Source: Thermanaeromonas sp. C210 (GTDB lineage: Bacteria > Bacillota > DSM-521 > Neomoorellales > Neomoorellaceae). From it: a stretch of DNA of 64,000 bases. Both the position numbers and the translations under genes were made by a program. The notes under the pieces are model-generated. The model searched no databases. It saw only the letters and a program-made list of their open reading frames with translations, and was not told the origin of the DNA. This document shows, in pieces, positions 20,361-39,506 of the stretch (its first letter is position 1; every line of letters begins with the position of its first letter). The stretch lies in NCBI RefSeq assembly GCF_013167955.1, contig NZ_BLWF01000001.1:620001-684000 (forward strand), in the 5' to 3' direction.

Positions 20361-20390
20361 TTGACACACTAGGGGACGCGACGTTACAAT
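20361..20390 (+). promoter_or_regulatory. Promoter of the GntR-led catabolic operon
   Basis: Consensus TTGACA (20361-20366) and TACAAT (20385-20390), spaced 18 bases, stand 63 bases before the TTG start of the GntR gene. The operator-like repeat follows immediately. Confidence 0.75.
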
Positions 20391-20453: not shown

Positions 20454-21170
20454 TTGGGTAGGTCGGTGTTCGCAACTACTAGAGAGGCCTTAATAGACTT
20501 TATACGTACTCATAATTTAGAAGATAACAAACTGCCGCCGGAGGAAGAGCTGGTGCATATTCTGGGTACCAGCCGGGGTACCATTAGAGAAGCCTTGAGG
20601 GCTCTGGCCAGGGAGGGTGTGGTCACCAAGAGGCACGGGAGAGGGACTTTTGCCCATCGCCGCACCCTCCGCGCTCGGATGCGCATAGACCAAATTCAGG
20701 ATTTTACTAACCTTATCGAAGACGGGGGCTATCGTCCCAGTATCGAGCTCCAGGGGGAGACTTTTGGGCAGAGGGTGGCGGATAAATCCATTCTGGAAAA
20801 ACTGGAGTGCGGCCCGGGAGAAGAGGCTCGGCAGTACGACTGCCTTTATCGGGCAGACGGTAGGCCGGCAATATATTGTAAAATATTTATCCCCGAAAAG
20901 AATTTCGTGACGCTGCCGCCCAACCGTCCGGAAGTAAGCAATGTTTTTGACTTTGTGGGAAAATACTGCGGCCGGGAAATCGTTCATACCCTCGTCTGGT
21001 TCGGCGCTGAAAAAGCTTCGCCTTTTGTGGCGCACAAACTGGAAATAGAGCCCGATACGGCCCTCCTCACTTGGGAGGAGCTGTACTGTGGCCTCCACGA
21101 CGACCTGGTAGGTTATTCCCAGATATATTTTCACCCTATGATGAATATTTGCATGCTACGTAAAACGTAA
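20454..21170 (+). CDS. GntR-family transcriptional regulator (HutC/FarR subfamily)
   Basis: A 238-residue repressor-type regulator. The N-terminal winged helix (about residues 5-70) has LPPEEELVHILGTSRGTIRE and REGVVTKRHGRGTFA. A UTRA ligand-binding domain of about 160 residues follows. It begins at TTG 20454. It heads the operon of importer, Mch homologue, amidohydrolase, AOR and alcohol dehydrogenase, so it probably senses the imported substrate or an early product. A palindromic site just after the operon promoter is its likely target. Confidence 0.88.
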   Translation: MGRSVFATTREALIDFIRTHNLEDNKLPPEEELVHILGTSRGTIREALRALAREGVVTKRHGRGTFAHRRTLRARMRIDQIQDFTNLIEDGGYRPSIELQGETFGQRVADKSILEKLECGPGEEARQYDCLYRADGRPAIYCKIFIPEKNFVTLPPNRPEVSNVFDFVGKYCGREIVHTLVWFGAEKASPFVAHKLEIEPDTALLTWEELYCGLHDDLVGYSQIYFHPMMNICMLRKT

Positions 21171-21190: not shown

Positions 21191-21913
21191 ATGGTTGTGC
21201 GTATTTTGGGGGTAAGCGGCAGCCCGCGGGCCAAAGGCGCCACACAATTGGCGGTCCGGACGGCCCTAGAAGCAGCGTCGGAACTTCCCGGGGTTACCAC
21301 GGAATTTTTGGACCTCCGCGGCAAAGATATTCATTATTGTATACATTGTGACAAATGCCTGCGTCAGGGAACCGCTCACTGCGTTGCCTTTAAAGATGAC
21401 ATGAACGAGCACGTATACGAGAGTATTTTGGCTGCCGACGGCCTCATCCTGGGTTCGCCGGTCTATCACATGGGAACGTCATCATTAACAAAACTCTTCA
21501 TGAATCGTTTTCGTCCGCTGGGTAGGTTGTTTGGCCAGGGACACTGGAGCACGAAGGTGGGTGGTGCTATTGCGGTGGGGGGTGTGCGTAACGGTGGCCA
21601 GGAAACAACCCTTGGAGAAATAAATAACTTCTTTCTGGCTAACGGTATGGTAGTGGTGAGCGGGGGTATTTTTGCTTACAACGGCGGTGCGGTTTGGTCC
21701 AACGACCAGAAAGAGAAAGGAGCTCTGTCTGACGAGGTTGGGCTGGCCACCGTTAGAGTGCTCGGTAGGCGGGTGGCTGCTATTGCCGGGGTTCTAAAAG
21801 CCGGCCGGGAGGCGTCGAGACTTCCGACCAGCGCCTTACTTGGTTGTGCCGATGATGATGAATTGCAGCAGAGGTTGCATACTTTCCGCCGCAGATCGGG
21901 GGAAGGAGAGTGA
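21191..21913 (+). CDS. NADPH-dependent FMN reductase/iron-sulfur flavoprotein-like protein
   Basis: A 240-residue flavodoxin-fold protein. The N terminus LGVSGSPRAKGATQLAV is the FMN phosphate loop, and GSPVYHMGTSSLTKLFMNR is the second flavin-contact block. Between them CIHCDKCLRQGTAHC (about residues 54-68) has the compact cysteine pattern of iron-sulfur flavoproteins. It may carry a [4Fe-4S] cluster and pass electrons to or from ferredoxin. It follows the GntR gene by 20 bases and precedes the ABC ATPase by 3 bases. It could reduce a ring substrate in this operon, but no reaction can be assigned. Confidence 0.75.
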   Translation: MVVRILGVSGSPRAKGATQLAVRTALEAASELPGVTTEFLDLRGKDIHYCIHCDKCLRQGTAHCVAFKDDMNEHVYESILAADGLILGSPVYHMGTSSLTKLFMNRFRPLGRLFGQGHWSTKVGGAIAVGGVRNGGQETTLGEINNFFLANGMVVVSGGIFAYNGGAVWSNDQKEKGALSDEVGLATVRVLGRRVAAIAGVLKAGREASRLPTSALLGCADDDELQQRLHTFRRRSGEGE

Positions 21914-21916
21914 GGG

Positions 21917-23440
21917 ATGGGGGACGGCTATTTGTTAGAAGTCCGAGGCATCGTGAAGAAGTTTCCGGGCGTGGTAGCCAACGATCATGTTTCCTTTGGT
22001 GTATATCCGGGAGAAATCCATGCTCTGTTGGGAGAAAATGGCGCCGGAAAGTCCACCCTGATGAAGATATTGTACGGGCTGTACCGACCGGATGCCGGCA
22101 GCATCGTGTACAAGGGGAAGGAGATAAGCATACCTTCACCTCAGGAGGCTATCCGCCTGGGTATCGGGATGATTCACCAGCACTTTATGCTGGTAGAAAG
22201 TTTTACGGTGCTGGAAAATATCGTCCTGGGTATGCCGCCTTTGACCAAAGGTTTCCTGAACCGGCAGATGCTTGCCCAACAAGTGCATGAGAAATTTAGA
22301 GATTATCTCAAAGGTATCAATTTAGGTGCAGAAGTGGAATCCTTGTCGGTGGGTACCCGGCAGAAGGTAGAAATCCTAAAGGCCCTTTACCGGGGTGCAG
22401 AATTGCTTATAATGGATGAGCCTACCTCCGTCTTGACTCCCCAGGAAACCGAGGATCTATTCGTTATGCTCCGGGAGCTCAAAAAACAAGGCTGCACTAT
22501 TATTTTCATCTCCCATAAACTTGACGAGGTTTTGCGGATTAGTGATCGCATAACCGTACTGCGGGACGGCAGGGTGGTGGGAACCGTAAACCGCCACGAG
22601 GTGACCGCTGAAGATCTTTCCCGCATGATGGTGGGTAGGGACGTATCCTTATGGCTACAGAAAAGGCCGTGTCGTCTCGGGAAGGTATGCCTCAGGTTAA
22701 GGGACGTATCTCTCCTTGATACCAAAGGCAAAGCGCTGTTGGACCGGGTTTACCTGGAGCTGCGCGAGGGAGAGATACTGGGAGTGGCTGGGGTGGACGG
22801 CAATGGTCAGACGGAACTGGCAGAGGTGATAGCGGGGATCCGCCCGGTGACCCGTGGCAGTATTGAGCTGCTCGGAAGAGAAGTTTCCGGCCTGTCTACC
22901 CGCCAACGGTTGGAGATGGGGTTGTCTTACGTCCCGGCCGACCGGCAACACCAGGGGTTGGTAATGGAGTTTACCGTTGCCGAAAATTTCGTCTTAGAAA
23001 CATATTATTCCCCGCCTTTCACGCGGAGATGGTCGCTGCAATGGAGGGAGATATTTGAGTTTGCTCGGCGATTAGTCCGTGAGTATGACGTGAGGACTCC
23101 AGGGCCGCAGACGCGCGTCAAACACATTTCCGGTGGCAATCAGCAGAAGATAGTCATGGGGCGCGAGCTATCACGCTCCCCACGAGTTATGGTCGTGGCC
23201 CGGCCGACCTGGGGTCTGGACGTAGGAGCCCGCGAATATATTCATCGCCGGCTTCTTGACCAAAGGGACAGGGGAGTAGCCATACTCCTTATCTCCACCG
23301 ACCTCGAAGAAGTCAGATCCCTTTCCGATCGGCTGGTGGTAATTTATGAAGGAAGAATTATGGGGGAGGTGGATCCTGGGACAACCAAGGTGGAAACCAT
23401 AGGTATGCTGATGGCAGGTGTTAAGCAAGAGGCATCCTGA
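21917..23440 (+). CDS. Nucleoside/nucleobase ABC importer, ATPase with two nucleotide-binding domains
   Basis: A 507-residue double ATPase of the carbohydrate/nucleoside uptake type (YufO/NupO/RbsA-like). The first domain is complete: Walker A LLGENGAGKST (about residues 36-46) and Walker B LLIMDEPTSVL (about 160). The second domain has GVDGNGQTEL in place of Walker A and VMVVARPTWGLDVGA in place of a normal Walker B, lacking the catalytic Glu. That asymmetry is usual in this family. The downstream lipoprotein and two permeases complete the importer. Confidence 0.9.
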   Translation: MGDGYLLEVRGIVKKFPGVVANDHVSFGVYPGEIHALLGENGAGKSTLMKILYGLYRPDAGSIVYKGKEISIPSPQEAIRLGIGMIHQHFMLVESFTVLENIVLGMPPLTKGFLNRQMLAQQVHEKFRDYLKGINLGAEVESLSVGTRQKVEILKALYRGAELLIMDEPTSVLTPQETEDLFVMLRELKKQGCTIIFISHKLDEVLRISDRITVLRDGRVVGTVNRHEVTAEDLSRMMVGRDVSLWLQKRPCRLGKVCLRLRDVSLLDTKGKALLDRVYLELREGEILGVAGVDGNGQTELAEVIAGIRPVTRGSIELLGREVSGLSTRQRLEMGLSYVPADRQHQGLVMEFTVAENFVLETYYSPPFTRRWSLQWREIFEFARRLVREYDVRTPGPQTRVKHISGGNQQKIVMGRELSRSPRVMVVARPTWGLDVGAREYIHRRLLDQRDRGVAILLISTDLEEVRSLSDRLVVIYEGRIMGEVDPGTTKVETIGMLMAGVKQEAS

Positions 23441-23495: not shown

Positions 23496-24515
23496 GTGAG
23501 GAAGACAGGCAAAGGTTGGATGGGCCTACTGGTAGCGTTGTTGTTGGTCCTGTCGATGGCCGCCTGTGGTAAGCAGGGAGGCCCTGCTGGAGAAGAAAAG
23601 GCTAGCGATGGCGGGCAGAACAGGGTTGTCAAGGTAGCGGTAGCCTTTCCAGGGTCCATTAAAGACCTGGGTTGGAACCAAGACCTGTATGAAGCCCTGA
23701 TGCGGGCTGGGGCCAAGTACGGCCTGGAGGTCAGCTTCCAGAAATCTGTAGCTCAGTCGGAGCTGAAGGATGTGTTGCGGAACTATGCGGCCGATGGATA
23801 TGACCTCGTAATTGCTGCTGACCTCTATTTCACCGACACTACGGTGGAAGTGGCCCAGGAATTCCCCCAGACCATGTTCGCCATAGTACACGGGACTAAA
23901 GCGGGTGGCAACGTCGCCGCAGTGACTACCTCCAACTGGGAAAGTACCTACCTGGCGGGGGCCCTGGCGGGTTTGATAACGAAAACTAATAAGATCGGCA
24001 TCCTCACCGCCACCGACAGCCCTGTGGCCTTGAAAATGGTAAAGGGGTTCAAAAACGGGGCCCGGGAAACTAATCCTAATGTTGAAGTCCTGCACTCTTT
24101 TGTAGGGAACTGGAACGATGTAGTCAAAGGGAAGGAACTGGTACGCTCAATGGTTAAGCAGGGGGCGGACGTTATCTACACCCAGAGCGGCCAGGTAAAC
24201 GTAGGGGCAGTAGAAGCGGCTAAAGAAGCCGGGGTTTATGCCATAGGTTCCATGGTGGATATGTGGGAAATCGCTCCCGATACCGTAGTGGCCAGTGCGA
24301 TAGCTCCTCCGGGAGCCCTTCTGGAGAAACTTATCGATATGTATATGGAAGGCACCCTGCAAGGTAAGAGATACGTCTTCGGGATAAAGGATGGGGTAGA
24401 AGATTTGTCACCTTACCATAATTTCGAAGACAAATTATCGCAGGAAGTTAAAGACAAAGTCGCAGTCGTAAGGCAAAAGCTTATCGAGGGTAAAGTTCCC
24501 GAACCGAGCCTTTGA
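23496..24515 (+). CDS. BMP-family substrate-binding lipoprotein (nucleoside/purine type)
   Basis: A 339-residue secreted lipoprotein. The signal peptide ends in the lipobox LSMAAC, so Cys at about residue 23 would be lipidated. The mature part matches the basic membrane protein (Med/PnrA/TmpC) family, seen in VAVAFPGSIKDLGWNQDLYE, GLITKTNKIGILTA and the C-terminal GVEDLSPYHNFE. Members bind purine nucleosides, nucleobases or autoinducer-like molecules outside the membrane. GTG 23496 follows AGAGGGGGG. It is encoded with ATPase and permeases, the full set of one importer. Confidence 0.9.
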   Translation: MRKTGKGWMGLLVALLLVLSMAACGKQGGPAGEEKASDGGQNRVVKVAVAFPGSIKDLGWNQDLYEALMRAGAKYGLEVSFQKSVAQSELKDVLRNYAADGYDLVIAADLYFTDTTVEVAQEFPQTMFAIVHGTKAGGNVAAVTTSNWESTYLAGALAGLITKTNKIGILTATDSPVALKMVKGFKNGARETNPNVEVLHSFVGNWNDVVKGKELVRSMVKQGADVIYTQSGQVNVGAVEAAKEAGVYAIGSMVDMWEIAPDTVVASAIAPPGALLEKLIDMYMEGTLQGKRYVFGIKDGVEDLSPYHNFEDKLSQEVKDKVAVVRQKLIEGKVPEPSL

Positions 24516-24587
24516 GGAAGCGGATATCATTGAGGAAGGGCGGGGCCAGCCCTTCCTCCCAAACTACCTTTATTGGTGGGGGAAGAT

Positions 24588-25628
24588 ATGGGACGTCGCC
24601 TGCTTTCAGGTTTAGTACCGATGATTGCCATATTAATCGCACTCCTTTTAGGAGCCGTTGTAATCGGCCTGGCAGGAGTGAATCCGTTGCTGGCTTACGT
24701 CCAAATGTTTGGGGGAATATTTGGAAGCCCCTACAGTGTTGGTGAAACTCTGAACAGGTTTATTCCCATGGTGTTTGCCGCGCTAGGATTTAGTATTGCC
24801 TATCAGGCCGGCTTTTTCAACGCAGGGGGAGAAGGGCAGATATATATAGGTGCGCTGGCAGCCGGCCTGGTAGGAATATATGTCCCGTTCTTACCGTGGC
24901 CGCTCCACATCCTGCTGGTGCTGGTGGCCGGTTGCCTGGCCGGAGCTCTCTGGTCATGGGTCGCCGGTTGGCTCCGGGTGAGGTTCGGAGCCAATGAATT
25001 GATCAACACCATGATGTTAAATTATATAGCCATCTTGCTGGTGGACGTTCTTTTGGTCACCTGGCTGAAAAACCCCGCTGACATCATCGATCAGTCTCCC
25101 CCTGTTGCCGCTACTGCCAGACTGCCTATTCTACTTCCCGGAACGAGGCTGCACTGGGGTTTTATTTTAGCCCTACTCGCCCCCCTGGCAACTTACTACT
25201 TCCTTTGGCGAACGCCCCTGGGTTTTGCCCTGCGTATGGTGGGCACCAATCCCCGTGCCGCAGTCTATGCCGGGATTCCAGTCGGCGGTGTAACCCTACT
25301 GGCTGCGTTAATTTCGGGGAGCCTGGCCGGCTTGGGCGGTGCATTAGAATTAGTAGGGAACCAGCACCGTCTGGTACGCGGCTTTTCTCCCGGCTACGGG
25401 TTTGACGCCATCGGCGCTTCGGTCATGGCCAGGAACAATCCTTTAGCTATCGTCTTTACTTCATTTCTGTTTGCGGCCCTAAGGGTGGGGGCCGGCGCCC
25501 TGCAGAGGAAAGTCGGGGTTCCTTTGCCCCTCGTACAAGTGCTGGACGGCCTGATAATAGTTTTGGTCATCGGCAGCTACTATTTTAGCGACCGCCTCAG
25601 CCAGGCAGCCACGAGGGGGGGATCTTAA
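24588..25628 (+). CDS. Nucleoside/nucleobase ABC importer permease 1
   Basis: A 346-residue permease of the BPD_transp_2 family (YufP/NupP-like) with about 9-10 hydrophobic helices. Family markers include NAGGEGQIYIGALAAG (about residue 81), GANELINTMMLNYIA, NPRAAVYAGI and GYGFDAIGASVMARNNPLAI near the C terminus. ATG 24588 is preferred to TTG 24573 because GGGGGAAG stands before it. Its partner permease begins 2 bases after its stop. Confidence 0.9.
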   Translation: MGRRLLSGLVPMIAILIALLLGAVVIGLAGVNPLLAYVQMFGGIFGSPYSVGETLNRFIPMVFAALGFSIAYQAGFFNAGGEGQIYIGALAAGLVGIYVPFLPWPLHILLVLVAGCLAGALWSWVAGWLRVRFGANELINTMMLNYIAILLVDVLLVTWLKNPADIIDQSPPVAATARLPILLPGTRLHWGFILALLAPLATYYFLWRTPLGFALRMVGTNPRAAVYAGIPVGGVTLLAALISGSLAGLGGALELVGNQHRLVRGFSPGYGFDAIGASVMARNNPLAIVFTSFLFAALRVGAGALQRKVGVPLPLVQVLDGLIIVLVIGSYYFSDRLSQAATRGGS

Positions 25629-25630: not shown

Positions 25631-26560
25631 ATGGAAGGCAGTTTGGGCATAGCTTTAGTTTCTTGGGCCGTAATGTCCATAAGGATGATGACACCATTGC
25701 TTTACACCGCCTTAGGCGGCGTTTTTGCCGAGAAGGTAGGCATCTTCAACTTTGGCCTAGAAGGTATGATGCTGGCCGGCGCCTTTTTCGGGTACCTCGG
25801 AACCCTCGTGGGAGGTAGCGTATGGGTAGGTGTGATCTTTGCTCTCTGCATCGGCGCCCTTACCGGCCTGGTTATGGGGTACTTTGCAGTAGGCTTGAGG
25901 GCCAGCCAAATGGTCTTTGGCATAGGAGTGAATATCTTTTACTTAGGTCTAACCAACTACCTGTACCGCATATTAAGTGCCGGTGAAGGATCTCTTGAGG
26001 TAGCCTTGTTTCCGACCATTAAAATTCCCCTTCTGGCCGATATCCCAGTCCTGGGCCCGATCCTCTTTGAGCATAACCTGCTGGTGTACTTGGCGTTACT
26101 TTTGGTGGTCCTCTCGTGGTGGTTTTTCTATCACACTGCGACGGGCCTCTCCTTTCGGTCCGCAGGAGAAAATCCGGCCGCGGCGGATACCGCAGGCATT
26201 AATGTGGTCCGTGTTCGTTACGCAGCTGCGGTTGTGAGCGGTATGCTAGCCGCCATGGGCGGGGGATTTCTAACCCTAACTCAGGTTAGCCGCTTTTTGG
26301 AAGATATAAGCCACGGGCGCGGTTGGATAGCGCTGGCGGCGGTTATCTTTGGGAAATGGAATCCCTGGGGAGTTATGGGGGCCTGCTTCCTTTTCGGAGC
26401 CGCTACTGCCTTGCAAATGCAGATGCAGGTTCTGGGGGTCAAGGTGCCTTACCAGGTTGTGGAGATGATCCCCTATCTGCTCACCATGCTCGCCCTCGCC
26501 GGCATGATCGGCCGGGTCAGGCGACCGGCATCCCTGGGCAAGGCCTATGTGAAGGAATGA
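25631..26560 (+). CDS. Nucleoside/nucleobase ABC importer permease 2
   Basis: A 309-residue BPD_transp_2 permease (YufQ/NupQ-like). It has EKVGIFNFGLEGMMLAGAFFGYLG near the N terminus (about residues 34-57), then GENPAAADTAGINV and GRGWIALAAVIFGKWNP, all standard for the second permease of BMP importers. It follows permease 1 by 2 bases and is followed after 1 base by the NodB-like hydrolase gene, so transport and catabolism are one transcription unit. Confidence 0.9.
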   Translation: MEGSLGIALVSWAVMSIRMMTPLLYTALGGVFAEKVGIFNFGLEGMMLAGAFFGYLGTLVGGSVWVGVIFALCIGALTGLVMGYFAVGLRASQMVFGIGVNIFYLGLTNYLYRILSAGEGSLEVALFPTIKIPLLADIPVLGPILFEHNLLVYLALLLVVLSWWFFYHTATGLSFRSAGENPAAADTAGINVVRVRYAAAVVSGMLAAMGGGFLTLTQVSRFLEDISHGRGWIALAAVIFGKWNPWGVMGACFLFGAATALQMQMQVLGVKVPYQVVEMIPYLLTMLALAGMIGRVRRPASLGKAYVKE

Positions 26561-26561: not shown

Positions 26562-27152
26562 GTGAAAAGAACTTTGGAAAGACGGATTGCCCTGACCTTT
26601 GACGGCGCTCCCAACCCTCCAGGGACTTACAATATTCTGGCGACCCTGGAGGCTCACAGGATAAGGGCCACTTTTTTCATGGAGGGGCACAGGGTCCTAA
26701 AGGAAAAGGAGTGTGCTATGGCAGTAAAAAATGCCGGCCACGAAATAGGTAACCACTCCTTTTCCCACCGCAACTTCGATGAGTTGAGTTTAACAGAATG
26801 CCAAGAAGAAATACTTCGAGCCGACGCGGTGCTAAGGGGAGAGCTGGGGGTGGTTACGCGGCTGCTGAGGCCACCTGGCGGGAGGCTGACCGACGGGGTG
26901 CGGGACCTTGCTTTAGGGATGGGCTACGATATAGTGCTTTGGACCTTCAGCATAAGAGATTGGGAAGGTCCTGATTCTGCCAGTCTGGCCGCAAGGGTGC
27001 TGGAGCAGGTACGCGACAACTGTGTGGTGGTCTTTCATGATCGCGTTCCCTGGGTTCCGGAGGCCCTCGAGATAGTAATACCTGCCCTGAAAAGGAAAGG
27101 CTTTGAGTTTAAAACTGTTTCTGAACTGGGTCGGCGGGGAATTATCAAGTAA
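26562..27152 (+). CDS. NodB-fold (polysaccharide deacetylase-like) hydrolase with altered metal motif
   Basis: A 196-residue protein with the NodB homology fold. Motif 2 is intact: HEIGNHSFSHRNF with the two metal-binding His (HSFSH, about residues 67-71). RPPGG (motif 3) and VVFHD (motif 5) are also present. Motif 1 reads TFDGAP instead of TFDDGP, so the second Asp, normally a metal ligand, is replaced by Gly. There is no signal peptide, so it acts inside the cell. In this operon a C-N hydrolase role on a small substrate is more likely than sugar deacetylation; PuuE-type allantoinases are a known NodB example. Substrate unknown. GTG 26562 or TTG 26574 may be the start. Confidence 0.75.
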   Translation: MKRTLERRIALTFDGAPNPPGTYNILATLEAHRIRATFFMEGHRVLKEKECAMAVKNAGHEIGNHSFSHRNFDELSLTECQEEILRADAVLRGELGVVTRLLRPPGGRLTDGVRDLALGMGYDIVLWTFSIRDWEGPDSASLAARVLEQVRDNCVVVFHDRVPWVPEALEIVIPALKRKGFEFKTVSELGRRGIIK

Positions 27153-27245: not shown

Positions 27246-28208
27246 ATGTTCAGCGTCAACCAAGAAGCCGTCAGGATCGTCCGGGAAAAGATTATCCCTA
27301 GAGCCGAGGAACTGAACTGCAAGGTTATACGCCTTGCCAATGGGGCTATGGTTATCGATATGGGAGTAGAAGTACCGGGCGGCTGGCTGGCGGGTCAATT
27401 GTTCGTCGAAGCCACCATCGGAGGACTGGGACAGGCATGCTTCGGCCGATTCTCCCTGGGTGCAATCGACCTGCCCTCCATAGACGTGTATATTGATCAT
27501 CCTCAGGAGGCCTGTCTTTCCTCCCAGTTTTCCGGATGGAAACTGCCGGGGAAAGACATTCCCGGCTACATCATTCCCATAGGGTCGGGGCCTGCACGTG
27601 CCATTGCGCGTAACGATATTTTTGCCCAAGCCTGGTCGTATAAGGACATCCACCATGCGGCAGTTTTTGCTGCCCAGACTACCGAACTGCCTGATGCGTC
27701 TCTGGCTGAATCCATTGCTGAAGCGTGTCAGATTCCGGTAGAGAACGTCTACATCTTGGCCGCCCGCACCGGCAGTCTGGTGGGGAGCATACAGGTATGT
27801 TCCCGGACCGTAGAGGCCAGCATGTGGCGCATGGTACGTAAAGGGTTCGACATAAGCAAAGTTATTAGTGGCATGGGATCCTGCCCGATTCCACCCCCCA
27901 TACGGGACGAGCTCAAGGCTATGGACCGTACTAATACCTCTTTACTTTATGGAGGTATGGTTAGATATGTGGTCGACTGTACGGACGAAGAGATCGAGCA
28001 GGTTATAGACCAGCTGCCTTTGAGTGCTTCCCGTTTATTTGGGACGCCTTTCTTGGAACTTTTTGAGGCTGCTGACCGGGACTTCTACAAGGTAGACAAA
28101 GACATCCACACTATTGCCTTCTATGAAATCATGAATGTTTCCTCGGGACGCACCTTCCGGGCTGGACAGCTGCGCGAAGACATGCTTAAGCAGTCGCTTT
28201 TTGACTGA
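27246..28208 (+). CDS. mch: Methenyltetrahydromethanopterin cyclohydrolase (Mch) family protein
   Basis: A 320-residue protein that aligns throughout with Mch. The start is MFSVNQEAVRIVREKI, followed by VIDMGVEVPGGWLAGQLFVEATIGGLG. The segment SIQVCSRTVEASMWRM (about residues 181-196) keeps the Arg and Glu, three apart, that I recall as catalytic in the Archaeoglobus enzyme. MGSCPIPPP follows. Mch hydrolyses methenyl- to formyl-tetrahydromethanopterin in methanogens and methylotrophs. Nothing else here suggests a methanopterin C1 pathway. The gene sits between a nucleobase importer with NodB hydrolase and a cytosine-deaminase-like gene, so the protein may open an imidazole- or amidine-like ring of a different substrate. 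ATG 27246 follows AAGGAGG. Confidence 0.85.
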   Translation: MFSVNQEAVRIVREKIIPRAEELNCKVIRLANGAMVIDMGVEVPGGWLAGQLFVEATIGGLGQACFGRFSLGAIDLPSIDVYIDHPQEACLSSQFSGWKLPGKDIPGYIIPIGSGPARAIARNDIFAQAWSYKDIHHAAVFAAQTTELPDASLAESIAEACQIPVENVYILAARTGSLVGSIQVCSRTVEASMWRMVRKGFDISKVISGMGSCPIPPPIRDELKAMDRTNTSLLYGGMVRYVVDCTDEEIEQVIDQLPLSASRLFGTPFLELFEAADRDFYKVDKDIHTIAFYEIMNVSSGRTFRAGQLREDMLKQSLFD

Positions 28209-28270: not shown

Positions 28271-29497
28271 ATGGTAGACTTATTGCTTAAGAACGCCCAT
28301 CTGTGTGGCGAAGACGTCGGTAAAGATGTAGCCATCCAGGGGGAACGCATCGTAGCCGTCGGTCCCAATCTACCGACAGAGGCCCGGCAGGTAATAAACG
28401 TGGGAGGGAGAACCATACTTCCGGCCTTTGTAGACTGCCATATTCACCTCGACAAAGCCTGGACTATGGACAAGATAACTAACGAGAGCGGCACCTTGGA
28501 AGAAGCTATTGACAACTTTATGCATTACTTCGAACAGGCCGACGAGGAGGATATCTATCAGCGGGCTATGATGGCGGCCGAAAGGGCTGTGGCTTATGGT
28601 ACAGGGGCGCTGCGTACCCATACAACTGTGGATTCACGCCAGGGCCTTAAGGCCCTCCGACCCCTCTTGGCGTTGAGGGAGCGCCTGCGGGGAAAGCTTG
28701 AGATCCAGGTAGTGATTTTTCCTAGCTTCCGAGGAGGAGATGCCCTGCATGTGAAGAAATTAATTATCCAGGCTCTAGCGGCAGGGGCCGACGTGCTCGG
28801 AGGGTGTCCTAACCTACACCCGGATGGGCGCACTTTTATTGATGAGATGTTTACGTTGGCCAGGGAGTATAGCGTACCCATTGATTTTCACGTGGATGAA
28901 AGTGATGAACCTAATGCCGATGTGCTGGAGTACCTGGCCGAAAAGACTTTGGTCGAAGGTATGCAAGGGAGAGTTACGGCAAGCCACTGCTGTTCTCTTG
29001 CCGCCGTACCCCAGGCGGTGGCCGACCGCATTATAGGTAAAGTAAGGGATGCCGGTCTTAACGTGGTCACCCTCCCGTCCTGTAATATGTTCCTGATGGG
29101 GCGTCGGGACCCCCAGCCCATCCGGCGGGGCGTCACCATGGTTAATGAACTTTTGCAGGCAGGTGTAAATGTGGCCTATGCCTCCGATAACGTTCGGGAC
29201 CCTTTCCGGCCCTTCGGCAATGGGGATATGCTGGAGGAAGCTCTGTTTACGGCCCAGGTAATTCAGAAAGGGTACCGGAAGGGCATCCTAGAAGTGCTGG
29301 AGATGGGCACTTATCGGGCGGCGAAAGTGATGGGCCTCCAGGAATATGGCCTAGCGCCGGGGAACTATGCAGACATTGTAGTATTGGAAGCCCCTGATGC
29401 CGTCGAGGCAGTGCTTTCCCAGGCAAGAAGAACCCTCGTAATTCACCGCGGTCGCATAGTCGCGCGGGAAGGTAAGATGGTGGAGACGTGCCCATAA
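28271..29497 (+). CDS. Cytosine deaminase-like amidohydrolase
   Basis: A 408-residue metal hydrolase close to E. coli CodA. Metal and substrate residues: CHIHLDKAW (about 55-63), HVDESDEP (about 210), TASHCCSLA (about 238) and the catalytic-site Asp in ASDNVRDPFRPFGNGDMLE (about 304). Known members deaminate cytosine, isocytosine, isoguanine or creatinine. The Lys after HLD, where CodA has Thr, and the other pocket changes make the exact ring substrate open. It lies 62 bases after the Mch homologue and upstream of AOR. Confidence 0.85.
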   Translation: MVDLLLKNAHLCGEDVGKDVAIQGERIVAVGPNLPTEARQVINVGGRTILPAFVDCHIHLDKAWTMDKITNESGTLEEAIDNFMHYFEQADEEDIYQRAMMAAERAVAYGTGALRTHTTVDSRQGLKALRPLLALRERLRGKLEIQVVIFPSFRGGDALHVKKLIIQALAAGADVLGGCPNLHPDGRTFIDEMFTLAREYSVPIDFHVDESDEPNADVLEYLAEKTLVEGMQGRVTASHCCSLAAVPQAVADRIIGKVRDAGLNVVTLPSCNMFLMGRRDPQPIRRGVTMVNELLQAGVNVAYASDNVRDPFRPFGNGDMLEEALFTAQVIQKGYRKGILEVLEMGTYRAAKVMGLQEYGLAPGNYADIVVLEAPDAVEAVLSQARRTLVIHRGRIVAREGKMVETCP

Positions 29498-29579
29498 CTT
29501 GAGGCATGCGGGAGAGAGGCCTTGACCGCCGGGGTTCTTGGGAGTAGGCAGGGATGAAAGGAAAGGTGGAAGGTGGTTT

Positions 29580-31286
29580 ATGGACGTCAAGATTCTGCGG
29601 ATCGATCTCGGCGGAAAGACCTACGGCGAGGAAAGGTTGGAGGTTGAAGGGCCTGCAGGGGGGCGTTATCTGACGTCCTGGATAGTCCGGGAAGAAGTAC
29701 CGCCCCGTTGTGGGTCGCTGTCGGCAGAGAACAAACTGGTACTGGCCTGCGGCCCCCTGGCGGGGCGGGGGATATCGAGTGCCGGGAGGCTGTCCGTAGG
29801 CTGCAAAAGCCCTCTGACCGGAGGCATCAAGGAGGCCAATGCGGGTGGTACCGCGGCGGATGCCCTGGCCCGCCTAGGCTTGAGCGCCATCGTCTTGGAA
29901 GGCCAATCGCCGGAGTGGGTAATCTTAATCATTGATGGAAAAGAAGTGAGCTTCCTTCCCGCTGCACCCTACCTGGACAAGGGTAACTACGAAGTCGCGC
30001 GGCGGCTTCGCGAGGAATTCGGCCAGGAATACGCTTTCATTACCCTGGGCCCGGCCGGCGAAAGGAAACTATGGGCTTCGGGGGTGGCCGTTAGTGACAT
30101 ATACGGCCGTCCGAGCCGCATAGCCGCCCGCGGCGGCGTCGGGGCGGTGATGGGAAGCAAGCGGGTAAAGGCCATCCTCCTTGCGGCACCGCAGGGTGAA
30201 ACCATACGGCCCGCCGACCCTGCTAGGGCTATGACGGCGAAGAAGGAATTCCACCGCATTATAGCCACCAGCGAGAGGGCCAAAGTTCTGGCCGAATACG
30301 GCACGGCGGAAACCATGGGTTTGGTGCAGGCCCTGGGGGCCCTACCTACCCGAAATTTCCGGGAGGGCAGGTTTGAACAGGCGGACAAGATAGACGGACG
30401 TGCCCTGTACAACCTTATCAAGGAGCGGGGAGGCGCCGGGAGGCACACGGAGCGCTGCATGGCCTCCTGCCTGATCCGCTGTTCCAATGCCGTGCCGGGC
30501 CCCGACGGCAGGGAGGTGGTAGCCCCCCTGGAGTATGAAACCCTGGGGCTTATGGGATCCAACTTGGGAGTGGGTGACCTGGATGCCATAGCCAGGTGGA
30601 ATTATTACTGCAACGACCTGGGAGTGGACACCATAGAGGTAGGAGCGGCTTTAGGGGTAATGGCCGAAGCCGGATTGGCCCGGTTCGGGGATGTGGCCGG
30701 CCTGGAGAAGATTATTTTAGAAATCTACCGGGGTACGCTGGTAGGCAGGCTGGCCGGTATGGGCGCTGCCTTTTGCGGGCTGGCGCTGGGTATAGAGCGT
30801 GTGCCGGCGGTAAAGAACCAGGCCATTTCGGCCTACGACCCCAGGGGAGTAAAGGGTACCGGCATAACCTATGCCACCTCGCCCATGGGAGCCGACCACA
30901 CGGCGGGTCTCACCGTATTTGCGCCGGTGGACCATCATGCTAGCACCGGGCAAAAGGAACTCTCCTACCGGATGCAGCTCAGCCGTGCAGCTTACGATGC
31001 CTTAGGGCTTTGTGCCTTCTTGCTCTCGGCCACCGGGCCCTATCCCGAGAAAGTAAGTGCCCTGCTGAACGCGTACTACGGGACCGAGCTGGGGCCGGAC
31101 TATCTCTCCCAGCTGGGGGCCCGGGTTATTGCCCTGGAAGTGGCCTTCAACCGGGAGGCCGGGCTGCCCGAAGCTGAGGAAATGCCGGCGTTTATGCGCG
31201 AAGAAAAACTGGGGCCTTATGATCTTATATGGGACATACCATCAGAAGAACTTCAGGATTTTTGGCGGGACTTGCCCGCCCTTTGA
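29580..31286 (+). CDS. aor: Tungsten-containing aldehyde:ferredoxin oxidoreductase
   Basis: A 568-residue AOR-family enzyme, a little shorter than the usual 600-620. The N-terminal domain shows RIDLGGKTYGEE, the cofactor-binding GRLSVGCKSPLTGGIKEANAGG and RIAARGGVGAVMGSKRVKAI. The [4Fe-4S] cysteines appear as CMASCLIRC (about residues 297-305) with a distal Cys in LGLCAF (about 480). It reversibly oxidises an aldehyde to the acid with ferredoxin. ATG 29580 follows GGAAGGTGG. The alcohol dehydrogenase gene begins 13 bases later, so an aldehyde is probably an intermediate of this operon. Confidence 0.9.
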   Translation: MDVKILRIDLGGKTYGEERLEVEGPAGGRYLTSWIVREEVPPRCGSLSAENKLVLACGPLAGRGISSAGRLSVGCKSPLTGGIKEANAGGTAADALARLGLSAIVLEGQSPEWVILIIDGKEVSFLPAAPYLDKGNYEVARRLREEFGQEYAFITLGPAGERKLWASGVAVSDIYGRPSRIAARGGVGAVMGSKRVKAILLAAPQGETIRPADPARAMTAKKEFHRIIATSERAKVLAEYGTAETMGLVQALGALPTRNFREGRFEQADKIDGRALYNLIKERGGAGRHTERCMASCLIRCSNAVPGPDGREVVAPLEYETLGLMGSNLGVGDLDAIARWNYYCNDLGVDTIEVGAALGVMAEAGLARFGDVAGLEKIILEIYRGTLVGRLAGMGAAFCGLALGIERVPAVKNQAISAYDPRGVKGTGITYATSPMGADHTAGLTVFAPVDHHASTGQKELSYRMQLSRAAYDALGLCAFLLSATGPYPEKVSALLNAYYGTELGPDYLSQLGARVIALEVAFNREAGLPEAEEMPAFMREEKLGPYDLIWDIPSEELQDFWRDLPAL

Positions 31287-31299: not shown

Positions 31300-32445
31300 G
31301 TGGTGCATAGCTTTTATCTGCCCACCAGGCTTTATTTTGGTACCGGTGCCCGGCAGAAGCTGGCGGGGTTCGTGGGAGCCCAAGACAGGGTAATAGTAAT
31401 TACTGATGAGGGTTTAGTTAAGAGCGGTACGGCGGGGAAAATAGAGGAGGTCCTGGCCGGTACGGGTGCCCGCTGGGAGATCTTTAGCGAGATCCAGCCC
31501 AACCCGCGGGCTGCTACCGTAGAAAACGCCCTGGAGGCGGCGCGCCGGTTTGAGGCCACCGCGGTGATCGCCTTGGGCGGGGGCAGTCCCATGGATGTGG
31601 CCAAGGTGGTCAGCGTCCTCCTTACTAACGGCGGGCGGCTGGAGGAATACCAGTGGGAAGGGAAGCCCTTCGCCGTACCCGGAGTGCCCCTGTATGCAGT
31701 TCCCACCACTGCAGGTACGGGCAGCGAAGTTACCCAGGTAGCGGTAATAATCGATCGTAATACAAAAAAGGGTATCAACAGTGAGCGGCTCCTGCCGACG
31801 GCGGCATTTATAGATCCTGAACTCATGATTACGCTGCCCCCCTTTGTTACGGCCATCACCGGCATGGATGCCCTGACCCATGCCGTGGAAGCCCTGGCGG
31901 CCCGGGGAAGCAATCCGGTGACTGACGCGTGGGCTGTAGAAGCCATAAGGCTCCTCGGGCAAAGCCTGCGCCGGGCTTTTGCGGTGGGCGACGATTTAAA
32001 AGCCCGGGAAAGCGTGGCCCTGGCCAGTACCCTGGCAGGTGCGGCTATGGACCAGGCCGGCCTAGGTATCGTTCATGCCCTGGCCGGCCCCTTGTGCAGC
32101 TACTACGACATACCCCACGGCCTGGCCAATGCGGTGCTACTCCCGTGGGGAATGGAGTATAACTTGGTGGCCGTCCCGGAAAAGTACGCCTGCGTAGCTT
32201 CCCTGTTGGGCAGGAAGGCGGGGGGAGATGTGCGGACAGAGGCTAAGGAGGCCGTGGGAGCGGTGCGGCAGCTCCTTCAGGACCTGGAGCTGCCCGGTGA
32301 CCTGGCGGCTTATCTGCAACAAGAGGAGGATATACCCCGGTTTGCCCGGGAGGCCGCGGCCATGTTCATCGCCCGTGCCAATCCCCGGCCCGTCACGCCG
32401 GCCGCCTGCGAGGCCATTCTGCGCAAGGTCTTCCTGAAGGGTTAG
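31300..32445 (+). CDS. Iron-containing alcohol dehydrogenase
   Basis: A 381-residue type III NAD(P)-dependent alcohol dehydrogenase. The dinucleotide site is ALGGGSPMDVAKVVS (about residues 91-105), followed by PTTAGTGSEVTQVAV. Metal ligands appear in GMDALTHAVEA (about 192) and GIVHALAGPLCSYYDIPHGLANA (about 255-277). GTG 31300 is chosen because GAGGGGG lies 8 bases before it; the longer frame runs far into AOR. It would interconvert an alcohol with the aldehyde used by AOR. It is the last gene of the GntR operon, facing the convergent TauE-like gene. Confidence 0.9.
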   Translation: MVHSFYLPTRLYFGTGARQKLAGFVGAQDRVIVITDEGLVKSGTAGKIEEVLAGTGARWEIFSEIQPNPRAATVENALEAARRFEATAVIALGGGSPMDVAKVVSVLLTNGGRLEEYQWEGKPFAVPGVPLYAVPTTAGTGSEVTQVAVIIDRNTKKGINSERLLPTAAFIDPELMITLPPFVTAITGMDALTHAVEALAARGSNPVTDAWAVEAIRLLGQSLRRAFAVGDDLKARESVALASTLAGAAMDQAGLGIVHALAGPLCSYYDIPHGLANAVLLPWGMEYNLVAVPEKYACVASLLGRKAGGDVRTEAKEAVGAVRQLLQDLELPGDLAAYLQQEEDIPRFAREAAAMFIARANPRPVTPAACEAILRKVFLKG

Positions 32446-33686: not shown

Positions 33687-34781
33687 GTGTACCAGGAGAT
33701 TAAGGGCGAAGCGGCCCTGGGAGAGCGGCCTGTTCTAGCCCTGGACATCGGCGGCGGTACCCAGGACATTTTACTCTATACTCCTGGGATTCCGGTGGAG
33801 GGGTGCGTGCAGTTGGTGCTTCCATCCCCCACCGTGGTGGCAGCCCGGCGCGTCCGGGCGGCCACGGCCAGTACAAAGGCCGTGTGGCTGAAGGGCACTA
33901 TAATGGGAGGCGGGGCGGTGGTAAAGGCCCTGCAGGAGCACCTGCAGGAGGGGCTGCCTGTTTATGCCGAGCCCCAGGCGGCGCGCACGGTGCGAGACAA
34001 CCTGGAAGAAGTGCGGCAGATGGGCATCCGGGTAGGGGAGGAGCCGGAAGGAGAGGCTGTGGTAGTGGAAACGCGGGACCTGGATCTACCCCTCCTGGCT
34101 CGCGCCCTGGCTCCCTACGGAGTGGAACTGCCGCCTCTTATACTGGTGGCGGCCCAGGACCACGGAGAGGCACCTGCCGGAGTAAGCAACCGCGCCTTCC
34201 GGTTCCAGCACTGGAGGAACTTCGTTGCCGCCGGGGGCCAGATTAAGGAACTGTTGTACCACCAGGCGCCGGCTTACTTCACTCGCCTCCTGGCCATCCA
34301 GAGTTCCGCCCCGGCCGGGTATGAAATCCTGGTGACGGACACGGCCGCAGCTGCCATCTGGGGCGCCCTGGCTGACGCGCGGGTGAAACAATGGGCCGCG
34401 GAAGGAGTCACGGTACTCAATCTGGGCAACCAGCACACGGTGGGCGTCCTCCTGGAGGGAGAAAGGGTGTGGGGCCTTTTTGAGCACCATACCGCCCTCG
34501 TGGATCCTTCCAAGCTGGCGGCAATGGTTGACCTGCTGCAGCAGGGGAGGCTCACCAACGAGCAGGTGTACGGTGACGGAGGCCACGGTGGCGTCATCGA
34601 CCCCGGCTACCGCCCCCGGGCGGCATACCGGCGGGTGGCGGTCATCGGTCCCCAGCGAGGGCTGGCGAGGGAGTTAGGCTACTACGAAGCCGTACCCTAC
34701 GGCAACATGATGTTGGCTGGCTGCTTCGGCCTCTGTCTGGCCCTCCAAGGGAAGGAGAGGGACGGTGCAATTTGTAGCTGA
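33687..34781 (+). CDS. DUF1786 family protein (actin/Hsp70-like ATPase fold)
   Basis: A 364-residue protein. Its N-terminal LALDIGGGTQDILLY (about residues 17-31) is the phosphate-1 loop of ASKHA ATPases, and VTVLNLGNQHTVGVLLEG (about 236-253) fits the second phosphate loop. The whole matches the DUF1786 group, sometimes labelled pyruvate formate-lyase-activating-like without evidence. No function is established. Its 3' end overlaps the EndoQ-UvrD gene by 17 bases, so the two are probably translated together. Confidence 0.7.
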   Translation: MYQEIKGEAALGERPVLALDIGGGTQDILLYTPGIPVEGCVQLVLPSPTVVAARRVRAATASTKAVWLKGTIMGGGAVVKALQEHLQEGLPVYAEPQAARTVRDNLEEVRQMGIRVGEEPEGEAVVVETRDLDLPLLARALAPYGVELPPLILVAAQDHGEAPAGVSNRAFRFQHWRNFVAAGGQIKELLYHQAPAYFTRLLAIQSSAPAGYEILVTDTAAAAIWGALADARVKQWAAEGVTVLNLGNQHTVGVLLEGERVWGLFEHHTALVDPSKLAAMVDLLQQGRLTNEQVYGDGGHGGVIDPGYRPRAAYRRVAVIGPQRGLARELGYYEAVPYGNMMLAGCFGLCLALQGKERDGAICS

Positions 34782-37700
34782 TTTTCATATCCACTCCCAT
34801 TATTCCCGCGCTACCAGTAAGGAGGCCAAGCCGGAAGAACTATACCGCTGGGCGGTCTATAAAGGTGTGACCGTGGTGGGGACGGGCGATTTTACCCATC
34901 CGGCCTGGCGCGAGGAACTAAAGAGCAAGCTGGAGCCCGCCGAGGAGGGTCTTTACCGGCTTAAGGAGGAGTTATGCCGGCAGCTAAGGGAAGCCGAAGG
35001 CCCGGGAGGTCCCCTGGCGGTTCTGTCCCCGCACTCCCCGGTGCGGTTTATGGTTTCCGGCGAGATCAGTACCATCTATAAAAAGGGCGGACGGGTGCGT
35101 AAAATCCACCATCTCATTCTTTTGCCCAGCCTGCAAGCGGCCGAGGAACTCAGCCACCGGCTGGAGGCTATAGGTAACCTCGCCTCCGACGGACGCCCCA
35201 TCCTGGGCCTGGACGGACGGCGGCTGCTGGAGATTACCCTGGAGGTTTGTCCCCGGGCCCTTTTGATACCTGCCCATATCTGGACTCCCCATTTTTCCCT
35301 CTTAGGGGCCAATTCGGGGTTCGACCATATAGAGGAATGTTTTGAGGACCTCACGGGCCATATTTGTGCGGTGGAAACCGGCCTTTCTTCGGACCCGCCC
35401 ATGAACTGGCGTTTGTCCATGCTGGACCGTTTCGCCCTGGTTTCCCATTCGGACGCCCATTCCCCCCGCCATTTGGCCCGGGAAGCCGACATCTTCGATA
35501 CCGAGCTTTCTTACGAGGCTATCTACCGGGCTCTCGCGGAACCCGGACACCCCGGTCTGGTGGGCACCCTGGAGTTTTTCCCGGAAGAAGGTAAGTATCA
35601 TTACGACGGGCACCGGGCCTGTAATGTCCGCTGGAGGCCCTCCCAGACCCGGGAGGCCGGAGGGGTGTGCCCCGTATGCGTCCGGAAGGTCACGGTAGGG
35701 GTTTTGCACCGGGTGGAAGAGCTGGCCGATAGGGAAGAGGGGGTTAGGCCTTCGGGGGTGAAGCATTACGAGAGCCTTGTTCCCCTGCCGGAGGCAATCG
35801 CCTCCGCTCTGGGAGTAGGCGTGGCCTCTAAACAAGTCTGGCAGCGTTATTTCTCCCTCCTCCGCCGGCTGGGCCCGGAACTGGTCGTTTTGCGGAAAGC
35901 TCCCCTGGAAGAGATAGAAAAGATCGGTGGGAGCCTGGTAGCCGAAGCCGTACGGCGGATAAGGGCAGGCGAAGTGGAGGTTTTACCCGGCTTTGACGGG
36001 GAGTACGGCAAGATAATTTTACTTACGCCGGAAGAAAGAGGGGCGTTTCCCGGCCAGGCTGCCCTCTTTGAGGACTCCTGCCAGGGGGCGGGTCCGGGAA
36101 CCGGCGGTCGTAAGAAGACCGGCCGGGGTACGATGGGTGCCCCGACCAGCCGGGCGGAAGCCGAGGAGAGACTGGCCCTGGCCTCGCGGGAACATCCTGC
36201 GGACGTGCCCTTCCCGGAGACCCTTCCGGGGTCGGCGACCGGAGGGCGAGACCTTTTGGCCTGCCTTAACCGGGAACAGCAGGCGGCAGTCACCGCCGAA
36301 GAAGGGCCGGTTATCGTAATTGCCGGCCCGGGTACGGGCAAGACCAAAACCCTGGTACACCGCATCGCTTATCTCCTGGGTCAACGGGGTGTGGCCCCGG
36401 GACAGATCACTGCCGTCACCTTTACCAATAAGGCGGCTTCCGAGATCCGCCAGCGCGTAACGGAGCTTATGGGCGATATCCCGGGAATTGAGGCTTTAAC
36501 GGTGGGGACCTTCCACAGTATTTGTATGGAAATACTTCGGAATTACCGGATAAATAATCGTAGCGGGGCCCCAGCCCTTGATCGCGAGGTAACCTTGCTG
36601 GATGAAGTGGACACTCGCACCGTTCTGGAGGAAATCCTGAAAGAGGTCCCGCGTCCCGGGCGCCGGGATGTACTGAAGATCCAGCGGATGATTTCCTTTC
36701 TCAAAAGCCGGGGCCTTAGTCCTTTATCCCATGGAGTTCCGGAAGAACTACGCGTAATTTATAAGGCCTACCAGGACAGAATGGCAGATTATGGTGTCCT
36801 GGATTACGATGATGTTCTCCTGGAGACCCTTAAGCTGACGAAAAGTTGCACCGACGTTTATGGGCAACGTTTTACCCACCTGCTGGTAGATGAATTTCAG
36901 GATGTTAATGCCGTCCAGTACGAGTTGGTCAGGCTCTGGGCCGGGAAGGGGAGGAATCTTTTTGTCATAGGCGACCCGGACCAGGCTATTTACGGCTTCA
37001 GGGGGGCAGACCACCGGTTTTTCTGGAAGCTCAAGGAGGATTTCCCCCAAGCCCAGACCATACGGCTTTCCTTGAATTACCGCTCTACTCCCGTCATCCT
37101 CCGGGCTGCTTCGGCGGTGGTGGGGCACAACACGGGAGGTCCGGTGGCCGTAAGGCAGGGCGGCCCGAAGATCCGGCACCTGGAGGTACCCGGTGAGATT
37201 TCCGAAGGAATAGCTATTGTAAGGGAAATTGGCCGGCTGGTGGGCGGTACCACCATGTTGCAGGCCCATGGCCAGTATGCGGGGCCTCCCGGGGAAGATG
37301 GCCTGGAAGCCCCGGGAAACCTGGGCTTTGGAGATATAGCAGTGCTCTTCCGCACGAGCCTGCAAGGTGAGGTCCTGGAGGAGTGCTTTTTAAAGGAAGG
37401 GATACCTTACCGGGTGGTGGGTCGGGAAAGCTTTCTGGAAGACCGCACCGTGCGGAAGGTACTGTCCTTCTTCTGGTGCGTGGTCAATCCCGAAGACGAT
37501 TTTCACCTCTATCGCCTGTTGAGCACCGAACCCTGGAAGGTGAGTCAGGGGGAGCTAAGGGGAATCCGGGAGGCCGGAGCCCGGACGGGGAAGCCGGCCT
37601 GGAAAATCATAGAGGAGAATCTGACGGGGCCCAATCCCAAACTGCTAGCCCTTAAAAAGAATATAGAGGTCTACCGCTCCTTGGCGGCTATAGAACCTCC

Positions 37701-38226
37701 AGCAGCTTTGATGTCCCGGTGGATAGAGGAATATGAAGTTGAAGCAAAGGAGCCCCTTAAGCGGCTGCTGCGGGTGGCTTCCGGGTTCCGCGATCTTTTT
37801 TCCTTTCTGCGGGCGATTGGAGCCGTCCGGGAAGCCGATTTAGAACGCCGGGGGGAAAACGCCTCATCGTCGGAGGCGGTTACCCTGATGACCCTCCATG
37901 CCGCCAAGGGGTTGGAGTTCCCTGTAGTATTTATTGCCGGGGTAGAAGATGGGCTCATCCCACTCCGGGGCAGAGAAGATCTCCCGAAAGAAGCCCTGGA
38001 GGAGGAACGTCGTCTCTTTTATGTAGGGCTGACCCGGGCGCGGGAGGTGCTTGTCCTGGTATCCGCCTTGAGAAGGACCCTTTTCGGGTCTAAAACTTTT
38101 ACCGAACCTTCTCCCTTCTTGCTGGATATACCGCCCGATTGCCTGGAGAGAAAGAAGTGGGCGGAACGAGTGCCTACTAGAAGCCGGACCCGGGGAGGCG
38201 CCTGTCAGCAACTAACCCTGTTTTGA
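34765..38226 (+). CDS. Fusion of EndoQ-like PHP endonuclease and UvrD/PcrA helicase
   Basis: A 1153-residue protein with two parts. Residues 1 to about 430 match the endonuclease Q/TIGR00375 group. They have a PHP metal site (FHIHSHYSRATSK, GTGDFTHP, LIPAHIWTPHFS, SHSDAHSP), a zinc-like region (HRACNV, CPVCVRK, about 290-312) and a helix-hairpin-helix-like stretch (EKIGGSLVAEAVRRIRAGEV). Residues about 500-1150 are a superfamily 1 helicase: Walker A GPGTGKTKT (about 521), LLVDEFQDVNAVQ, GDPDQAIYGFRG, LNYRSTPVI, TLHAAKGLEFPVVF and RRLFYVGLTRAR. EndoQ nicks DNA 5' of deaminated bases such as uracil, hypoxanthine and xanthine; the fused helicase could then displace the strand. GTG 34765 follows GGAGAGGG. 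Confidence 0.85.
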   Translation: MQFVADFHIHSHYSRATSKEAKPEELYRWAVYKGVTVVGTGDFTHPAWREELKSKLEPAEEGLYRLKEELCRQLREAEGPGGPLAVLSPHSPVRFMVSGEISTIYKKGGRVRKIHHLILLPSLQAAEELSHRLEAIGNLASDGRPILGLDGRRLLEITLEVCPRALLIPAHIWTPHFSLLGANSGFDHIEECFEDLTGHICAVETGLSSDPPMNWRLSMLDRFALVSHSDAHSPRHLAREADIFDTELSYEAIYRALAEPGHPGLVGTLEFFPEEGKYHYDGHRACNVRWRPSQTREAGGVCPVCVRKVTVGVLHRVEELADREEGVRPSGVKHYESLVPLPEAIASALGVGVASKQVWQRYFSLLRRLGPELVVLRKAPLEEIEKIGGSLVAEAVRRIRAGEVEVLPGFDGEYGKIILLTPEERGAFPGQAALFEDSCQGAGPGTGGRKKTGRGTMGAPTSRAEAEERLALASREHPADVPFPETLPGSATGGRDLLACLNREQQAAVTAEEGPVIVIAGPGTGKTKTLVHRIAYLLGQRGVAPGQITAVTFTNKAASEIRQRVTELMGDIPGIEALTVGTFHSICMEILRNYRINNRSGAPALDREVTLLDEVDTRTVLEEILKEVPRPGRRDVLKIQRMISFLKSRGLSPLSHGVPEELRVIYKAYQDRMADYGVLDYDDVLLETLKLTKSCTDVYGQRFTHLLVDEFQDVNAVQYELVRLWAGKGRNLFVIGDPDQAIYGFRGADHRFFWKLKEDFPQAQTIRLSLNYRSTPVILRAASAVVGHNTGGPVAVRQGGPKIRHLEVPGEISEGIAIVREIGRLVGGTTMLQAHGQYAGPPGEDGLEAPGNLGFGDIAVLFRTSLQGEVLEECFLKEGIPYRVVGRESFLEDRTVRKVLSFFWCVVNPEDDFHLYRLLSTEPWKVSQGELRGIREAGARTGKPAWKIIEENLTGPNPKLLALKKNIEVYRSLAAIEPPAALMSRWIEEYEVEAKEPLKRLLRVASGFRDLFSFLRAIGAVREADLERRGENASSSEAVTLMTLHAAKGLEFPVVFIAGVEDGLIPLRGREDLPKEALEEERRLFYVGLTRAREVLVLVSALRRTLFGSKTFTEPSPFLLDIPPDCLERKKWAERVPTRSRTRGGACQQLTLF

Positions 38227-39247: not shown

Positions 39248-39401
39248 AGTTTTTAACCTCCTACCAGAAGGCTTTCCATTTTAGCGTAAACTCATTCCCA
39301 GGCAGCTATTACAGGAGGCCTGGAGAAGCATGGCGAATTTAAATGAGATTTAATAGAACCGGCAGGATTTAAGAAAAATGTAGCGAATTTATTAAAAGAC
39401 T

Positions 39402-39471: not shown

Positions 39472-39506
39472 TGGGTTCCTCATGGTTTTACGGCATCTGG
39501 TTTTTT
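39440..39506 (+). terminator. Riboswitch-controlled terminator 1
   Basis: Bases 39440-39454, which form the 5' strand and loop of aptamer helix P3, can instead pair with TTTACGGCATCTGG (39487-39500). That gives 14 pairs with one bulged A, followed by six T. Aptamer and terminator exclude each other, so ligand binding should allow read-through (ON switch). Confidence 0.8.

Follow-up and report, generated by a model that had tools for sequence, protein, structure and literature searches.

We find that the gene at 27246-28208 (+) of the window, the whole 64,000-nucleotide stretch of Thermanaeromonas sp. C210 DNA that was analysed, encodes a genuine member of the Mch family, yet a non-canonical Mch. 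The protein belongs to a separate clade, here called type B, in which repurposing of Mch is well supported. The first-pass annotation had proposed that a bacterium with no methanopterin pathway holds a repurposed cyclohydrolase. This proposal is strongly supported by the missing pathway, the separate clade, the catabolic setting of the genes, and the fixed Glu-to-Gln change. On balance, we lean toward a type-B subfamily that left H4MPT C1 metabolism and serves an operon for the uptake and catabolism of a pterin-like compound. A deaminated 2-oxo, lumazine-type pteridine would be hydrolysed by the enzyme.

The window protein is a non-canonical member of the Mch family

The open reading frame is full length (320 aa), with a strong ribosome site (AAGGAGG) about 10 nt 5' of its ATG, and is the single Mch gene of the assembly. 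The PF02289 profile matched the entire protein (353 bits, 1.4e-105), and the TIGR03120 score of 294 lies above the equivalog cut-off of 228.8. Archaeal Mch proteins are the nearest solved structures, and the AlphaFold model (pLDDT 87.7) has the Mch fold, with a TM score of 0.90 against both 1qlm and 4gvq. R187 and E190 of the Arg-x-x-Glu segment align with A. fulgidus R183 and E186, which we take to be the catalytic residues of Mch, and the GSCPIPPP region is also present, in agreement with what had been noticed from the sequence initially. The full-length profile match above a curated cut-off, the fold, and the catalytic pair together place the protein in the family. The operon and the codons discussed below are as follows.

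20361-20390 (+), sigma-70-like promoter, TTGACA-18-TACAAT, ahead of the operon (consensus match only, 11/12)
20454-21170 (+), GntR/UTRA regulator (Pfam; same cluster at several other type-B loci)
21191-21913 (+), FMN_red-family flavoprotein with an FCxHCxxC-like motif (Pfam; relatives at 10/25 type-B and 0/11 canonical loci)
21917-23440 (+), BMP-type importer ATPase (similarity cluster c1)
23496-24515 (+), BMP/PnrA-like substrate-binding lipoprotein (PF02608)
24573-25628 (+), importer permease 1 (cluster c3)
25631-26560 (+), importer permease 2 (cluster c3)
26562-27152 (+), NodB-fold deacetylase/deformylase-like hydrolase (PF01522; adjoins type-B Mch in L004, L005, and L006; also in L049)
27246-28208 (+), type-B Mch paralogue, 320 aa, predicted deaminated-pteridine hydrolase (PF02289/TIGR03120; clade B in the maximum-likelihood tree, 100/99; fold TM 0.90)
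27675-27677 (+), codon Q144 (A. fulgidus E140), diagnostic Glu-to-Gln position (alignment; only fixed difference)
27804-27815 (+), codons R187 to E190, Arg-x-x-Glu kept (A. fulgidus R183, E186; alignment)
27825-27830 (+), codons W194-R195, His-Lys in most canonical Mch (alignment)
28271-29497 (+), cytosine-deaminase/AtzC-like amidohydrolase, candidate pterin or lumazine deaminase (PF07969/PF01979)
29538-31286 (+), aldehyde:ferredoxin oxidoreductase (PF01314/PF02730; recurs near type-B Mch)
31300-32445 (+), iron-dependent alcohol dehydrogenase, true start near 31300 (PF00465/PF25137; recurs near type-B Mch)

The amidohydrolase at 28271-29497 matched NF005748 below its cut-off, and its closest PDB entries are AtzC and cytosine deaminases. 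Farther along the window, 34765-38226 (+) encodes a UvrD/Rep-type helicase of 1153 aa whose N-terminal part matches TIGR00375.

The host genome lacks the H4MPT pathway genes searched for

The window assembly is 99.39% complete, and genome-wide searches detected no Fae, RFAP synthase, FTR, or Mtd N-domain (MtdA/B), which bears out the earlier impression, formed from the window, of a missing methanopterin and C1 pathway. The direct searches covered these four families. Because the same FTR, RFAP synthase, and Mtd searches succeeded in the H4MPT-bearing relatives G212, G285, and G081, each of which has a canonical cluster, their absence here is informative; archaeal controls were also positive for RFAP synthase, Fae, and FTR. 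With these families searched and absent, a canonical H4MPT pathway elsewhere in the genome was ruled out. FolD was found in 21 of 21 genomes tested, including that of the window, so the Mch homologue is not needed for folate C1 interconversion, and type-B Mch as a FolD replacement was likewise rejected.

Some relatives combine these features differently. The near-complete genomes G124 and G155 contain a clade-A Mch with Glu140 (L044 and L057, respectively) without FTR and RFAP synthase, and the Mch gene at L057 faces a BMP importer on the opposite side. G076, which is without RFAP synthase, has a near-canonical FTR and FhcA/B-like genes beside a BMP protein, a COG0402 amidohydrolase, and a DAO oxidoreductase (L076:4246-12804).

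Type-B Mch proteins form a separate clade with one fixed Glu-to-Gln difference

In a maximum-likelihood tree of 61 full-length proteins, 21 fell into clade A, which takes in the archaeal structures and proteobacterial mch genes adjoining fae and RFAP synthase genes, and 40 fell into clade B, with the split supported by values of 100 (bootstrap) and 99 (SH-aLRT). The window protein sits in clade B, and a constraint joining its subclade with clade A was rejected (AU p=0.007). The phylogeny suggested in the first-pass annotation thus sets this clade apart from canonical Mch, and we found neither tight grouping with canonical Mch nor a methanopterin or archaeal-type C1 gene set in the genome.

Scanning for alignment columns at least 95% fixed inside both groups revealed a single fixed difference. 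The position of A. fulgidus E140 is Glu in all 21 canonical proteins and Gln in all 40 type-B proteins, including the window protein (Q144), which therefore lacks the invariant Glu of the canonical H4MPT cyclohydrolase (EC 3.5.4.27). Since the change is one ancestral event, its presence in 40 of 40 proteins indicates constraint rather than 40 independent substitutions. R183 is invariant, and E186 is retained in 38 of the 40 type-B proteins and is Asp in the other two. The MWRM segment reported initially as unusual does differ from canonical bacterial Mch, where the column pair is mostly His-Lys, and W194-R195 is found in the window's subclade. From the residue pattern, E140 would be the pterin anchor of Mch, and a substrate in which oxygen replaces the 2-amino group would need a swap at the residue gripping the pyrimidine edge.

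Short Mch paralogues of 232-271 aa adjoin full-length type-B Mch genes at L041, L047, L060, L061, L062, and L007. They are without the catalytic Arg/Glu pair and, judging from their sequences, are probably a non-catalytic partner subunit. L007 belongs to a bacterium in culture, Pseudoflavonifractor gallinarum DSM 107456.

Type-B genes lie among importers and catabolic genes

Mch homologues were found in 25 of 398 genomes of the window's phylum, and type B occurs in the window's bacterium and about fifteen related genomes (15 type-B genomes in the phylum sample), with up to five Mch matches per type-B genome. Further type-B relatives come from records of Chloroflexota, Spirochaetota, Actinomycetota, and Oscillospiraceae; these records include metagenome-assembled genomes (MAGs), and the MAG assemblies in the comparison set are incomplete.

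We read about 20 kb around most Mch loci and counted neighbours at 11 type-A and 25 type-B loci. The type-A neighbours are FhcA/B, FTR, RimK, and CitG-like genes, and Fhc, FTR, RimK, or CitG genes accompany Mch at 9 of 11 type-A versus 0 of 25 type-B loci. Conversely, in counts that ignore kinship, importers were present at 16 of 25 type-B versus 1 of 11 type-A loci and COG0402 amidohydrolases at 12 of 25 versus 1 of 11. Type-B genes are accompanied by a varying mix of BMP or ECF importers, COG0402 amidohydrolases, FMN_red flavoprotein, NodB-like hydrolase, aldehyde:ferredoxin oxidoreductase, iron-dependent alcohol dehydrogenase, SDR, and E1/E2 2-oxoacid-dehydrogenase genes. Because these sets differ widely among loci and subclades, type-B enzymes may act on several substrates. 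The window gene combines the three features by which we propose to recognise type B: placement in clade B, Gln at position 140, and an importer/catabolic neighbourhood.

FolB and other pterin-family proteins accompany type-B Mch in relatives

Several type-B clusters of relatives contain a paralogue of dihydroneopterin aldolase (FolB). A Glu of FolB (Glu73 in E. coli, Glu74 in S. aureus) bonds the N3-H and 2-amino groups of the pterin and matters more for binding than any other residue (PMC4176595). In the paralogues of type-B genomes, this anchor is changed to Gln; the catalytic Lys is kept, and the Tyr and Glu22 are kept in most. One such Gln-form FolB is encoded at L061:10995-11360. Ordinary FolB with Glu is encoded elsewhere in the same genomes (G112, G212, G351, G047, and G213). 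A phylum-wide search, in which the best-scoring loci of 30 genomes were read, found Gln in 9 genomes, all type-B, and Glu in 21, none of them type-B (Fisher 7e-8, with kinship ignored and best-scoring loci only); of the phylum sample's 15 type-B genomes, 9 thus showed the Gln form at the loci inspected. A FolB of G379 is 70% identical to the Gln form, yet it keeps the Glu, and that genome has no Mch match. The window genome contains only the Glu-type FolB, so that the FolB argument concerns the relatives and not the window operon.

FolB and type-B Mch have unrelated folds and are co-occurring partners without homology; what they share is an identical Glu-to-Gln change at the residue that holds, or in Mch would hold, the 2-amino group of the pterin, and the two changed proteins are encoded in the same genomes, often within one cluster. 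Two-domain FolB-like proteins of about 240 aa were also observed in type-B genomes (L105, L106, L102, L107, L103, and L104), with Gln at the first-domain anchor; their domain count is uricase-like and their sequence is FolB-like.

Other neighbours belong to pterin-related families. A Pterin_bind/methyltransferase-like gene lies directly 5' of Mch at two type-B loci (L051 and L053), and in these neighbours a MeTr Asn, the role of which we assume, is changed to Asp. A luciferase-family gene is found at Chloroflexota and Actinomycetota type-B loci, and for the one tested the best PDB match was methylene-H4MPT reductase (Mer). G047 and G133 have very divergent FTR paralogues amid COG0402, kinase, aldolase, and alcohol dehydrogenase genes.

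Very divergent FTR paralogues at L079 (7377-8252, -) and L080 (6507-7433, +) score 131-135 bits versus 322-485 bits for canonical FTR with the same model, and the catabolic clusters around them include COG0402, FGGY kinase, aldolase, and alcohol dehydrogenase genes. A scan for acid-to-amide changes found one position occupied by Glu in every canonical FTR compared and by Asn in both of these proteins; with two sequences only, we place no weight on it.

A proposed role in pterin uptake and breakdown

We propose that the BMP ABC importer would import a pteridine, from which the cytosine-deaminase-like amidohydrolase would strip the 2-amino group to convert a pterin into a lumazine type, while the flavoprotein may oxidise or reduce the pyrazine ring. 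Q144 of the Mch-like enzyme, at the position where true Mch has Glu, would then hold the 2,4-dioxo pyrimidine edge, and R187/E190 would add water at an N5-bonded carbon. The group attacked might be the N5=C6 imine of a dihydrolumazine, which would open, or an N5-linked amidine, which would be hydrolysed. The NodB-like hydrolase, aldehyde:ferredoxin oxidoreductase, and alcohol dehydrogenase may process the resulting acyl and aldehyde fragments. We assign the import and hydrolase roles by protein family, and a deaminated substrate is suggested by the two Glu-to-Gln changes in Mch and FolB together with the deaminase-family neighbours. The importer ligand, the deamination step, the exact substrate, the ring-opening reaction, and the step order are all putative, and the bond cleaved is a guess drawn by analogy with canonical Mch geometry.

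BMP importers and COG0402 or cytosine-deaminase enzymes also serve purines and pyrimidines, for which they are classical. Type-B Mch might accordingly open the imidazole of a 2-oxo purine of the xanthine type at C8, after which the NodB-like enzyme would deformylate the product. C8, the amidine carbon flanked by N7 and N9, closely resembles the methenyl carbon in its chemistry, a Gln would also fit a 2-oxo purine, and xanthine-dehydrogenase-like genes are present near some relatives (L058 and L114) and elsewhere in the window. Those window genes, however, are controlled differently. Purine riboswitches (RF00167) at 39385-39485 and 45064-45163 (+), of 81 and 76 bits, precede xanthine-dehydrogenase-like and SsnA genes and a second BMP-type importer (45248-50204), respectively. 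These riboswitch-led genes are a purine regulon separate from the Mch operon: they resemble it in having a BMP importer and an amidohydrolase but differ in lacking an Mch homologue and in lying behind riboswitches. No purine riboswitch was found in the window other than these two, and thus none before 20454; at the type-B Mch operons searched we found no riboswitch, with purine riboswitches only at other operons. As a GntR/UTRA gene and a promoter-like site belong to the Mch operon itself, the window speaks mildly against a purine substrate, and the FolB, Pterin_bind, Mer-like, and FTR-like neighbours in relatives, together with the parallel Glu-to-Gln changes, favour a pteridine. We therefore regard the purine reading as the main rival but as unlikely. 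The initial suggestion of an imidazoline- or amidine-like ring or a purine-degradation product fits the neighbours less well than does a deaminated pteridine, although its purine form is still a live rival.

It is improbable, in our estimate, that the enzyme is a true methenyl-to-formyl cyclohydrolase acting on a deaminated or scavenged C1-carrying pterin, with the C1 unit of imported fragments freed as formate. Retention of the catalytic Arg/Glu, the Mer-like genes adjoining type-B Mch in Chloroflexota, the candidate NodB-like deformylase, and the near-canonical FTR of G076, which lies beside importer and COG0402 genes and once with FhcA/B-like genes, would all suit such a reaction. Most type-B loci, however, have 2-oxoacid-dehydrogenase or SDR genes in place of C1 genes, and we found no FTR, Fhc, or Mer-like gene in the window operon and no FTR in its genome. 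If the enzyme were an ordinary Mch, with H4MPT acquired externally or pathway genes missed, or served as a reserve methenyl-H4F cyclohydrolase, the TIGR03120 score and the conserved fold and catalytic pair would be explained. We consider this very improbable given the lack of pathway genes in a nearly complete genome, the ubiquity of FolD among the genomes tested, the separate clade and neighbourhood, and the multiple matches per genome. Another 2,4-dioxo ring system could be considered, such as a flavin or ribityl-lumazine taken up in the manner of riboflavin: some bacteria import riboflavin through BMP-type systems, one ECF S component has a weak match to the riboflavin-transporter family, and flavins have the 2,4-dioxo edge as well. 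Flavins would need neither a deaminase nor a FolB-type aldolase, and no flavin riboswitch was found at the loci searched, leaving this the least probable of the readings weighed here.

Relation to known systems and significance

Compared with canonical Mch (PF02289/TIGR03120; 1qlm, 4gvq, and 4fio), the window protein shares homology over its whole length, the fold, and the Arg183/Glu186 pair, but it differs in its clade, in Gln for E140, in a genome without the H4MPT pathway, and in an importer/catabolic operon; type-B relatives differ further in having multiple paralogues per genome. We found no report of a type-B Mch subfamily in a non-exhaustive search of the open-access literature, and we know of no enzymes assigned to the steps after pterin deamination. 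Bacterial degradation of folates and pterins by carboxypeptidase G and pterin deaminase has been published (PMC9513972). The deaminases described there (Arad3529 and Variovorax F1 PDA) provide a parallel, as a cyclic-amidine amidohydrolase deaminates the pterin ring early in catabolism, whereas the portion of that report drawn on here leaves the later steps open and mentions no Mch-like enzyme (PMC9513972).

More broadly, and tentatively, these genes may represent an unrecognised anaerobic degradation of pterins and folates via lumazine-type intermediates, built from a recruited H4MPT/folate toolkit (Mch, FolB, and MeTr-, Mer-, and FTR-like proteins), in which Mch and FolB would have been independently retuned by the same Glu-to-Gln switch reading 2-oxo versus 2-amino and type-B Mch would be the ring-opening hydrolase. 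Because type-B genes exceed the equivalog cut-off for Mch, they would receive a C1-pathway annotation, and metabolic inference from genomes may thereby credit organisms with methanopterin pathways that they lack. Should the proposed substrate prove right, type-B genes would show how anaerobes degrade pterins and folates and would provide a clean case of two pterin-binding proteins of unrelated fold switching specificity in parallel, from Glu to Gln.
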